Below the pieces are notes generated by a model. That model had not been told where the DNA came from, ran no database searches, and saw only the letters and a list, made by a program, of their open reading frames with translations. 20,397 nt of DNA, taken from positions 1 through 20,397 of IMG/VR virus record IMGVR_UViG_3300031707_000235. One strand, 5' to 3'. The translations under genes and the position numbers were made by a program. Of the stretch, positions 2,204-16,506 are shown piece by piece (position 1 is the first letter of the stretch; each line of letters opens with the position of its first letter). The stretch comes from a virus.

Positions 2204-3532
2204 ATGCTAGGATTATTAGGAAGCTTACTGGAAGATAATAGCTTAAAACAACAAGGATTTTGGAATGCTTCAACGAATACTCCCACTTTAGCCAATAGTG
2301 TTGGAGTTCAAGGTTATTACTATGTTGTTTCTGTTGGCGGCACTGTCAACTTTGGAGCTGGAAACATTACTTTTACTGTTGGCGATTGGGTTTATTACAA
2401 CACAGCTAATCAATGGGTTAAGTTTGAAACTGGTGTTGCTTATACACCAGAAGATGTAGCAAATAAAGCAACTACTTTTGGAACTATAAACGATACTCTT
2501 TACCCTTCCGTTAAAGCAGTTAATGATCAATTAACAACGAAAGTAAATAAAGCTGGCGACACAATGACTGGCAGTCTTAACTTTAGCGGAAACGGCTTAG
2601 ATATTACTGGCGATTTTTCAAACGCAACTCGTGCAAACCGCCTTGCCCTTCAAACATCAACTGTAAACGGAAATACCAGAGTTCCTATACTTCCAAATGG
2701 CACTGCAAGACTTGCTGGCATAGATTGCCACGATGGCGCTGATGCTGACAATTCTTCATTTTTACAAGTCCATTCCGACGGCACAAATAATCATTGCGGC
2801 TTAAATTCTGGAAAAGTTGGTACTGGCGTGGGAAAAGATTTAGTGCTTCAAGTTGAAGGCATAAATAGAGCTAAAAGTAGTTTCGTAGATGGCGGCTTCC
2901 AATATTTACAAGCTGTAAATGCACAAACTGGTACAACCTATACTTTAGTTGCTGATGATTTTGCAAAATTAATTACTATTAATAATGCATCACCAATTAC
3001 AATAACCCTTCCTCAGCAATCAACAACTCCAACAACTACGGGCTTTTTCGGTAAAGTTAGAAATTTGGGAGTTGGTGTTATTACTTTTGTTAAAGAAGGC
3101 GCAGAAACTCTGGACGGCAATACAACTTTAAACCAATTTGGCGAAGTACTTATTGAAAGACCTACTACAACGAAGTGGTCAATAGCTTACGGCACAGCAT
3201 TAAAACCTTGGCAAATTGAAGCTACAAGAGTTCCTTCAGTTCCAGTTGCCGGCACAACTTATGTTTTAGTAACTAAACCTAAAAATCCTTTTACAATCAC
3301 TGGCTTTGTTCAACAAGCTACTTCGCTCGGAACTGCTGGTACTTATACTGTGTTTATTAACGGCGTAGCAATAACTGGTTTAACTGCGGTTGCAAATACA
3401 ACTACAATCAATGAAACCGCAGCAACTGCTTTAAATAGCGTTAGTGCGGGAGATCAAGTAACAATAGTTCTTACTGGGATTGTTGCACCTGTTGGCTGGA
3501 TTGGCTCTATATCAATTTTAGAATCATTATAA
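2204..3532 (+). CDS. Long tail fibre / receptor-binding protein
   Basis: A 442-residue protein. The N-terminal 75 residues (QGFWNASTNTPTL, then YYYVVSVGGT and FTVGDWVYYN) form a module widespread at the start of phage fibre and tail-tip proteins. Around residues 115-130 it has VNKAGDTMTGSLNFSG, the classic MTGSL fibre-shaft repeat. A later domain (YTLVADDFAKLITINN, then ITITLPQ) resembles another fibre shaft/collar unit. The C-terminal 100 residues are Thr/Val-rich and strand-like, with no recognisable peptidase tag. It very likely forms a trimeric host-binding fibre. It starts 2 bases after the previous stop without a Shine-Dalgarno sequence. The composition is Asn/Thr/Gly-rich, as expected for fibres. 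Confidence 0.75.
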   Translation: MLGLLGSLLEDNSLKQQGFWNASTNTPTLANSVGVQGYYYVVSVGGTVNFGAGNITFTVGDWVYYNTANQWVKFETGVAYTPEDVANKATTFGTINDTLYPSVKAVNDQLTTKVNKAGDTMTGSLNFSGNGLDITGDFSNATRANRLALQTSTVNGNTRVPILPNGTARLAGIDCHDGADADNSSFLQVHSDGTNNHCGLNSGKVGTGVGKDLVLQVEGINRAKSSFVDGGFQYLQAVNAQTGTTYTLVADDFAKLITINNASPITITLPQQSTTPTTTGFFGKVRNLGVGVITFVKEGAETLDGNTTLNQFGEVLIERPTTTKWSIAYGTALKPWQIEATRVPSVPVAGTTYVLVTKPKNPFTITGFVQQATSLGTAGTYTVFINGVAITGLTAVANTTTINETAATALNSVSAGDQVTIVLTGIVAPVGWIGSISILESL

Positions 3533-10449: not shown

Positions 10450-10818
10450 TCATAAAACCATACTCCTAACTGCTTTTTTATTAAACTGTTTAATCTCGTC
10501 CATTAAATCATTTGCTAACGCATAACCAAAAACATCATCGAAAGTAGCAATCTTGATAAAGCAACTCTTTTCAAGTAACTTGATCGAAGCCTCGTTATCT
10601 TTCTTAACTAATGCAACCAGTCTTGGAATATCTAACCTTTTACATTTTTTTAAATACTTTGGCAACTCAATTGACATTACGCCTTGATTCCAATATTCCT
10701 CAATTAGAGAGTATTCTAGGTGGGGTAAGCCATTCCTTTGTTGCTTTATAAGTCTAATATAACCAATTACTTTACTGCCTATTCTTAACTCGTTTACATT
10801 AAAGATCCTTGGAATCAT
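10450..10818 (-). CDS. GNAT-like acetyltransferase
   Basis: A 122-residue protein with the outline of a GNAT fold. Strands at residues 11-22 (RIGSKVIGYIRL) and 34-39 (LEYSLI) lead to motif A around EEYWNQGVMSIELPKYLKK, where acetyl-CoA would bind, then LVALVKKDNEASIKLLEKSC, the typical N-x-x-S-x-x-L-x-E-K-x-G/C-F motif B. The canonical Q/R-x-x-G-x-G/A loop is only partly kept (NQGVMS), so activity is uncertain. It begins inside the ImmA/IrrE gene, overlapping it by 20 bases, so the two proteins are made together. A substrate cannot be read from sequence. Confidence 0.6.
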   Translation of the reverse strand: MIPRIFNVNELRIGSKVIGYIRLIKQQRNGLPHLEYSLIEEYWNQGVMSIELPKYLKKCKRLDIPRLVALVKKDNEASIKLLEKSCFIKIATFDDVFGYALANDLMDEIKQFNKKAVRSMVL

Positions 10819-11335
10819 TTTGGTTAGTTAATTTTGAAGTTATTTCTTCTTTTAAGGTTTTAATTCTGAATTCCATTGCTTGATAAGATACTTGAAAAAT
10901 CTTAGCAATCTCCTTTAGACCATCTTCGTTAATTTTATTGTCGATAATTACTTTTTTTTCTAAAGCATGTTTTATTATTAAGTCTTCTGGCATTAGAATG
11001 CTTGCTCCAAATTTATTTGCCTCTATTTCTTCTTGGTCTCCAATGTTAAAATTATCTAGGCTTCTATATTTTACCGAATCCATGGTTCCAAGATCCCCCA
11101 TTTCCATAGTATGATACATAAAATGCCCCAACTCATGAGCCATTGTAAAACGCTGTCTGTAGTAATGGTCTTTTTTATTAACAGAAATTTTATAGCCACC
11201 ATCTTGCTTTTTTCTAATTTGCCCAGCAATTCCTTCTGGTAACTCTGCGTTTTTATCAAGCTCAATTCCCCAGCAATGAATTATTGCCTCAACATTAACT
11301 GGAGCGTTGCTTAAATATTGTTTAATTTCTGACAT
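10799..11335 (-). CDS. ImmA/IrrE-family metallopeptidase
   Basis: A 178-residue protein. The zinc-protease motif HELGH is at residues 67-71 (FTMAHELGHFMYH), followed by EIEANKFGASILMPEDLI, where Glu105 would be the third zinc ligand. This pair of motifs is diagnostic of ImmA/IrrE (COG2856) proteins. The C-terminal 50 residues (LKEIAKIFQVSYQAMEFRIK) are helical and HTH-like, as often found after the protease core. Known members cleave repressors (ICEBs1 ImmA cuts ImmR; IrrE cuts DdrO). Here no Xre repressor gene sits next to it; instead it is fused by overlap to a GNAT gene. Its target might be the HTH-like protein at 15615-15944 or a repressor outside the window. Confidence 0.85.
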   Translation of the reverse strand: MSEIKQYLSNAPVNVEAIIHCWGIELDKNAELPEGIAGQIRKKQDGGYKISVNKKDHYYRQRFTMAHELGHFMYHTMEMGDLGTMDSVKYRSLDNFNIGDQEEIEANKFGASILMPEDLIIKHALEKKVIIDNKINEDGLKEIAKIFQVSYQAMEFRIKTLKEEITSKLTNQNDSKDL

Positions 11336-15965: not shown

Positions 15966-16169
15966 TTACCAGCCGTAGCCGTAGCCGTTGCCGTCGCCCC
16001 GTAGTTGCCGTAGCCATCGGCCGTTGCCGTCGCCGTTGCCGTAGCCATCGCCGTAGCCGTTGCCGTCGCCGTTGCCGTCGCCGTTGCCGTTGCCGTAGCC
16101 GTAGCCATCGCCGTAGCCGTTGCCGTTCAAAACGCTATGGTTTTTTTCCTTATTAAATTGATTATACAT
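15966..16169 (-). CDS. [N/Y/D]-Gly dipeptide-repeat protein
   Basis: A 67-residue reading frame placed one base after the stop of the upstream gene, so it fits the operon. After a normal 15-residue start (MYNQFNKEKNHSVL) it consists of Asn-Gly, Tyr-Gly and Asp-Gly dipeptides encoded by NAYGGC hexamers, broken once by a frame-shifted stretch RWLRQLR, and ends YGYGW. Two other frames over the same DNA give Ala-Thr and Arg-rich products. This frame is preferred because its variable positions are limited to the first base and wobble base of the N/Y/D codons, because it has a non-repetitive start, and because a stop follows directly. Expression is unproven. If made, the protein would be disordered and glycine-rich. 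Confidence 0.5.
   Translation of the reverse strand: MYNQFNKEKNHSVLNGNGYGDGYGYGNGNGDGNGDGNGYGDGYGNGDGNGRWLRQLRGDGNGYGYGW
15972..16127. repeat. GC-rich hexanucleotide tandem repeat (GCCGTN / NAYGGC)
   Basis: A 156-base block of 6-base units. From 16020 to 16127 there are 18 uninterrupted units drawn from GCCGTT, GCCGTA, GCCGTC and GCCATC; 15972-16019 is an imperfect continuation. It is strikingly GC-rich in an AT-rich genome. On the minus strand the units are AACGGC, TACGGC, GACGGC and GATGGC, and GATGGCTACGGC occurs three times, showing higher-order duplication. Confidence 0.95.
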
Positions 16170-16170
16170 A

Positions 16171-16506
16171 CTAAGCCCATTTAGATTGTTCGCAATTCAT
16201 AACTAAAACAACATTAGCAGTATCAACTGTAATATCTGGACAAGCATCTAAAATAGTATCTGGTAATTTACCTTTTATTGCTAACTCTCCCAATCCTTTA
16301 GTTGTTCCCCATTTGCGGATTACAGCAGCGTTTTGAATAATAGTTTTATTAACTGATTCACTAACATTACCGACTACAATCCAGCCACGATTTAGTACTA
16401 AAATTTGAACTGGAAAAGCTTTGTATTTAGATTGTTTTTTTAATTCCGATTCTTTAATATAAGTCTCGCCATTTATTTCTATTTTAGATGCAATTTCTTT
16501 TGTCAT
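16171..16506 (-). CDS. Conserved phage hypothetical (DUF6948-like)
   Basis: A 111-residue protein. The segment NRGWIVVGNVSESVNKTIIQ followed by NAAVIRKWGTTKGLGELAIKG and later TILDACPDITVDTANVVLVM matches a pattern I recall from small phage and plasmid proteins (G-W-V-x-V-G...VIRxWGTTxGLGELA...T-x-L-D), which I believe is DUF6948; the function is unknown. It is the first gene of the minus-strand early operon, behind two candidate promoters in the divergent region 16507-16647. It lacks a clear Shine-Dalgarno sequence, with an A/T-rich leader before the ATG. Confidence 0.6.
   Translation of the reverse strand: MTKEIASKIEINGETYIKESELKKQSKYKAFPVQILVLNRGWIVVGNVSESVNKTIIQNAAVIRKWGTTKGLGELAIKGKLPDTILDACPDITVDTANVVLVMNCEQSKWA

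Follow-up and report, generated by a model that had tools for sequence, protein, structure and literature searches.

A hexamer repeat gene in a tailed-phage fragment recurs directly behind a gene for a predicted Sm-like protein

The window analysed here, the whole 20,397-base stretch of a virus record (GC 0.34), is a fragment of a tailed phage that carries genes for DnaB, SSB, RecT, a YqaJ exonuclease and a lysozyme. A gene for an IrrE-like M78 peptidase lies at 10799-11335 on the minus strand. When the window DNA was compared with phage DNA, the only neighbour was one short lysozyme match (Pelagibacter phages), and a plasmid search matched nothing. The locus of interest contains the following features.

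15966-16169, minus strand: Gly-dipeptide repeat ORF of 67 aa plus stop; an equivalent ORF lies behind the partner gene in relatives.
15972-16127, minus strand: NAYGGC hexamer array, 18 perfect units (16020-16127) followed by two (16007-16018) and four (15972-15995).
15996-16019, minus strand: irregular stretch with small indels and a net frame change of zero, which includes the two-unit run at 16007-16018 and is absent from relatives L143 and L144.
16128-16169, minus strand: leader MYNQFNKEKNHSVL of the repeat ORF; the short leaders of relatives are alike.
16170, minus strand: single base between the partner stop codon (16171-16173) and the repeat-ORF start codon (16167-16169); relatives overlap here.
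16171-16506, minus strand: partner gene, 111 aa, of predicted Sm-like fold (DUF6948 superfamily; family A2, 69 sequences; AF2 pLDDT 89.1; Foldseek and VIA matches to 3by7 and LSm/SmAP chains).

An earlier sequence-only reading of this DNA had described a GC-rich array of 18 perfect units with an imperfect tail reaching 15972, set in AT-rich DNA, and this description proved accurate: TRF placed the array at 15971/15972-16127, and the 18 units, read in the ORF frame, use AAC, TAC, GAC and GAT only, with His absent, as had been claimed. The array is beyond chance expectation: ACGGCN x4 occurs eight times, all within the array, and not once in 100 dinucleotide shuffles. The runs of 18, two and four units are separated by irregular bases, and the irregular tail region codes for RWLRQLRG. 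These tail indels, which are absent from the near-identical relatives L129/L143 and L130/L144, are in the window either real or an assembly error. The array forms the body of the 67-aa ORF, which has its own leader. AF2 gave no structure for the repeat protein (mean pLDDT 34 with five sequences), a low confidence that is compatible with disorder and is no proof of it; the protein is thus predicted to be disordered, in agreement with the earlier reading. A Pfam match of the repeat to TrAA12 is below the cut-off in every protein but one (32.7 versus 30.9 bits) and is taken to be a composition artefact.

What is the protein encoded immediately upstream? An AF2 model built with 69 sequences reached a pLDDT of 89.1 and a pTM of 0.72. 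Its top match in the PDB by Foldseek was 3by7 (E 1.1e-4), a protein from an uncultured source whose title notes structural similarity to Sm/LSm-like RNA-binding proteins, and the other PDB matches were mostly LSm, spliceosomal Sm and archaeal SmAP chains. VIA gave Z 8.7 and 8.3 for the first two matches, and a Z of about 8 is only moderate by the tool's own note. In a viral structure library, the first matches were a Barba phage protein and a DUF6948 phage protein. The partner is therefore predicted to adopt an Sm/LSm fold. The Sm1 motif contains a glycine pair, G-x4-G, and this pair is present in the partner family as G41 and G46, both invariant in the 69 sequences of A2. Also conserved in the Sm-like proteins is a segment RxWGTTKGLGELA. 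Classical Sm proteins contact uridine through the Sm1 D/N and Sm2 R-G residues. These residues are not evident in the A2 consensus or its invariant columns, and the Pfam hits of the 69 members include no LSM family. For these two reasons, we file the partner as Sm-like by fold only; the likeness to Sm/LSm proteins lies in the predicted fold and the difference in the RNA-contact residues. A PDB sequence search with the partner profile gave no significant match (best E 0.039).

The partner may also be related to DUF6948 (Pfam PF22253), a domain of unknown function that is named in no paper we found. In the window's branch, 33 of the 69 members match PF22253 weakly (best E 2.7e-5), and the window's own protein gives no match at E <= 0.1. 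All ten tested ORFs upstream of arrays found by DNA pattern exceed its curated cut-off of 27 bits (71-108 bits). A profile comparison between the window's branch and the canonical DUF6948 branch is suggestive only (probability 57, E 1e-4). The 111-aa protein appears to be a distant relative of DUF6948. Detection of partner genes was performed with our own Sm-like profile; PF22253 matched nothing in three records, nor in any control genome.

Does the gene pair recur? With the 111-aa protein alone as query, six viral loci were found, all six with a Gly-dipeptide ORF directly behind (GGA replacing GGC in two). A profile made from those loci recovered 133 relatives, and among the best 80 of the 133, found by the partner family alone, 78 viral loci hold a Gly-dipeptide array. 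The two that do not are L164 and L171, and the downstream DNA of the latter is 48 bases only. The arrays of L187, L203 and L209 were confirmed in another frame than that first assigned, and ten of the partner-found loci have their array on the upstream side of the partner instead, at a distance of about 460-1090 bases. A search of related phages, which the sequence-only reading had proposed, thus finds a similar repeat at the equivalent operon position. Its suggestion of a foreign insert is not borne out, because the repeat ORF accompanies the upstream gene in these 78 of 80 loci. Among cultured phages, the pair is found in Barba (115 of 115 records), RcapNL, ctOK67 and cthkR962; the genes deposited as hypothetical proteins gp017/gp018 of Barba phage and gp46/gp47 of RcapNL are the same pair as that in the window, gp017 being the Barba repeat protein and gp018 its Sm-like partner. 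Among genome contigs, Pectobacterium fontis carries the pair and one further partial match is without an array; in a profile search of 369 genomes of the class of P. fontis, the sole match was the centre of that search itself. Within what was searched, the module is mainly phage-borne.

We also examined the association in reverse, locating arrays by DNA pattern and then seeking a same-strand upstream Sm-like gene. The three pattern scans are samples with at least 120 matches each. They supplied 120, 119 and 106 loci after removal of 1 and 14 stretches that earlier sets contained; before counting, arrays were dropped if they had under 10 Y/N/D/S units or less than 700 bases of upstream DNA. Some contigs are shared between these sets and with the partner-found set. 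The Sm-like profile was iterated on L009-L224 and then frozen, so that of the three sets only the latter two were unseen by it. Among the matches listed, an Sm-like gene lies upstream of 136 of the 155 mixed, Tyr-containing arrays (66 of 77 for the GGC pattern, 29 of 33 for GGA and 41 of 45 for the Asn-run pattern) and was not detected for the remaining 19; for Gly-dipeptide arrays of other types in these scans, including homopolymer-like ones, the count was 0 of 25. Therefore, the association is specific to the Tyr-containing alphabet and not general to Gly repeats. In an earlier form of this test, the count was 67 of 78 after 25 arrays with too little upstream DNA had been set aside, and a cruder tally of the GGA set, in which homopolymers were not separated, gave 27 of 52. 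The GGA scan also returned pure or near-pure Asp-Gly arrays without an Sm-like neighbour (L250, L253, L256, L283 and others), which were used as a control. The arrays of L044 and L352 are framed differently, as MKYP-(XG)n-AYPY, and a search upstream of L044 detected no Sm-like gene.

The two frames are also closely joined, overlapping at the start codon in 51 of 68 pairs and lying within 20 bases of each other in 13 more. In a number of pairs (seen by eye, uncounted) a GAGG-like sequence is present inside the last codons of the partner. Because of this sequence and the start-codon overlap, we infer that the two genes are translationally coupled. Fusion of the two genes was not seen: none of 157 Sm-like ORFs carries the repeat. 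These observations bear on the possibility that the repeat protein works independently of any Sm-like complex, as a Gly/Tyr protein that sticks or forms fibres in the manner of silk or lamprin, and that the genes merely share an operon slot. The composition would suit such a role, one deposited relative is named lamprin, and some arrays are joined to other domains such as DUF7666. The overlapping frames and the strong association in both directions, specific to Tyr-containing mixed arrays, speak against it, and we consider this explanation unlikely.

Several array ORFs have a distinct architecture or annotation. In L045 and L077, a DUF7666 domain precedes the array in a fused ORF. In L019, L030, L041, L048, L056 and L081, an N-terminal segment with a GACxDGV-like motif precedes the array in the same ORF, and no Pfam family was found for it in the three that were scanned. 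The array ORFs of L014, L059 and L104 continue past the repeat into a common C-terminal region (..CYIxxxxxxFAHG..WHHRLTGSC..), for which a Pfam scan of L014 and L104 gave no family. Several array ORFs stand in tandem at each of L011, L069 and L217-L219. A repeat ORF of the window's class is deposited as lamprin in L225 (MW202613.1, 2728-3042). In L227 (MW202566.1), the deposited gene at 2803-3093 is in another frame (MVMVMV...), and the repeat ORF, MSYSRNANTADD...GYGW, occupies 2730-2969 directly behind the Sm-like gene.

The surroundings of the pair are varied. Among 81 loci, the neighbour genes, some of them named by eye, include YqaJ (8), RecT-like (5), ERF-like (6) and DnaB-like (5) genes. 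A minority of loci thus lie near recombination or replication genes, which fits expression alongside that module. Clustering of the neighbours in the 81 loci revealed no third gene common to most; the two large clusters besides the partner were antisense frames, and the largest real cluster (nuclease-like, by eye) covered 12 of 81. This absence, together with an Sm-like partner, makes it very unlikely that the repeat is a precursor of a modified peptide (RiPP), with a leader and a repetitive core altered by an enzyme, although a short recurring leader does precede a repetitive core.

The sequence-only reading had also proposed a slippage-prone locus of variable length, and two comparisons uphold this. 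First, the Barba1A segment was matched in all 115 Barba records; among the 60 matches listed, it measures 792 bases in 41, 798 in 17, 822 in one and 834 in one, so that lengths always differ by multiples of six (+6, +30 and +42 bases). In eight Barba isolates, the repeat ORF has 69, 71, 79 or 83 aa, changing in whole-hexamer steps with N/Y/D exchanges, while the flanks show 0-1 differences in 582 bases (318 upstream and 264 downstream). According to the accessible part of the source paper, the Barba isolates (n=54) were sequenced at 193x to 4,789x coverage (PMC6715854), and assembly error is therefore an unlikely cause of this variation. Second, between the window and its two closest relatives, the partner gene is identical at 335/336 and 334/336 positions and the downstream sequence at 350/351 and 349/351 (flank identity 99.4-99.7%), and the arrays differ throughout. 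A change in unit number between conserved flanks, which marks a variable-number tandem repeat, is thus found in the Barba isolates and in the window compared with L143 and L144.

Such divergence between almost identical flanks might indicate a hypervariable chain that serves as a decoy or counter-defence factor, carried by the Sm-like protein and driven to change by host recognition. Unit slippage suffices for the variation, however; the alphabet is fixed at Y/N/D(S), and 24 of 67 arrays contain an excess of repeated six-unit blocks (p <= 0.05), as expected from duplication. We regard the decoy explanation as rather improbable. A diversity-generating retroelement is not supported, given the absence of both a reverse transcriptase (RVT_1 in 0 of 5 phage records; the control was detected in 3 of 14 genomes) and a separate template repeat (in four phage records, three-unit pattern matches are confined to the one array).

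The composition of the arrays provides further information. In 75 distinct arrays (2152 dipeptides; median 29 units, range 9-48), the variable residue is Tyr in 815, Asp in 555, Asn in 521, Ser in 91, Phe in 40 and His in 12, with others making up the rest. The first base of the NAY codons is accordingly T in 815, G in 555, A in 521 and C in 12, and His is nearly absent (12/2152) though reachable by C at that base. The pattern His-only gave 23 stretches in a complete scan, and Asn-only gave at least 120. The sequence-only reading had pointed out that Asn, Tyr and Asp are read by queuosine-type GUN tRNAs; in relatives, the variable position also holds Ser, Phe, Cys and Glu, which such a rule would not lead one to expect, although the scarcity of His is real. 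Of the 75 arrays, 63 use mainly GGC for Gly, and GGA, GGT and GGG predominate in four each; inside each array the Gly codon is nearly uniform (median share 0.97). This pattern, uniform within arrays and different between phages, suggests that arrays are homogenised in each lineage, with the protein alphabet preserved between lineages. Intact arrays encode hardly any Lys or Arg. The predicted charge of the repeat protein is negative in 75 of 75, and recurring leaders of the repeat ORFs include MGKQTINFEEQHSVIG, MAIKTVNEDAHSLIG and MYNQFNKEKNHSVLNG. In a survey of low-complexity regions, as far as its accessible text goes, aromatic residues and Asn were under-represented (PMC6821194).

Could the array be a neutral microsatellite in a dispensable ORF? 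Rapid change in unit number and a low-complexity product would both be expected of one. Convergence of different Gly codons on a single amino-acid alphabet would not, nor would the avoidance of His, the retained frame and the recurring leaders, and we find this account very doubtful. A related idea is that the DNA or RNA repeat itself is functional, as a binding array or an RNA structure. GGC and NAC codons are dominant even in phages of 0.29-0.35 GC, a feature for which a pure protein-level account gives no explanation. A nucleic-acid element of this kind is nevertheless disfavoured because the Gly codons switch between arrays, whole arrays being written in GGA, GGT or GGG, and the ORFs retain their leaders and starts; we judge it highly improbable.

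At the level of sequence, these phages carry a recurrent two-gene module with overlapping or near-touching frames, in which the repeat protein is conserved across different Gly codons and changes by whole units. We propose, as an evenly balanced possibility, that the acidic and presumably disordered repeat protein serves a phage Sm-like ring as a low-complexity tail encoded apart from it. The repeat gene would yield a disordered acidic (Tyr/Asn/Asp[/Ser])-Gly chain after a short leader, made together with the Sm-fold protein from the gene immediately upstream. In an infected cell, the Sm-like protein may assemble into a ring with affinity for RNA (or ssDNA), to which the leader may tie the repeat protein. 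The chain would then act as a low-complexity tail, with Tyr as stickers and Gly as spacers, which tunes the ring or gathers ring complexes into a ribonucleoprotein-like assembly. As Y/N/D units would function in many orders and array lengths, unit number could drift fast. Simple pairing of charges with the acidic repeat is unsupported as a general rule, because only 32 of 69 Sm-like proteins carry a positive charge. This mixed charge, the 19 of 155 arrays without a detected partner, the domain fusions and the GGC/NAC dominance sit badly with a simple form of the tail model. The proposal is also weakened by the missing uridine-contact residues, by the lack of any fusion among 157 Sm-like ORFs and by the only moderate VIA scores.

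The separate-tail proposal has parallels in known systems. Eukaryotic Sm proteins bear Arg-Gly dipeptide tails, and Lsm4 has a low-complexity tail. In both cases an Sm fold works with a Gly-dipeptide or low-complexity chain; the phage chain differs in being encoded by a separate gene and in being acidic and Tyr-rich rather than Arg-rich. Hfq is likewise an Sm protein, and in the accessible part of the source its disordered acidic C-terminal domain tunes it (PMC5606850), whereas the phage chain is a separate, much longer Gly-dipeptide repeat. The parts are therefore of known kinds, namely an Sm fold, a low-complexity repeat and a variable tandem repeat. The pairing itself was not described in the literature searched: the Gly-repeat strings of the arrays appear in no paper found, a search of the accessible text of the Barba paper (PMC6715854) for repeat, glycine, indel and Sm-like gave nothing, and the titles and opening lines of abstracts on Gly-rich phage repeats, hexanucleotide repeats in phages, phage Sm/Hfq-like proteins and phage condensates contain nothing recognisable as the module.

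What would these findings mean for the biology of these phages? A domain of unknown function gains a partner and a predicted fold, and proteins annotated as 'hypothetical' or 'lamprin', or in the wrong frame, gain a partner. The arrays also show, in nature, protein-level selection acting convergently on a tandem repeat: one amino-acid alphabet is kept with four different Gly codons. If the separate-tail proposal is true, the Sm-family proteins with Gly-repeat tails would gain a variant in which the tail has its own gene; the low-complexity chain used with phage Sm-like proteins would be detachable, and isolates from nature would constitute a ready series in length and composition. We further speculate, more tentatively and with some doubt, that many tailed phages carry a two-gene ribonucleoprotein scaffold, in which a fast-evolving Tyr/Asn/Asp-Gly chain condenses Sm-like rings to handle phage RNA or recombination intermediates, as an independent counterpart of Sm proteins with Gly-dipeptide tails. 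If that were so, the module would represent a new kind of phage system.
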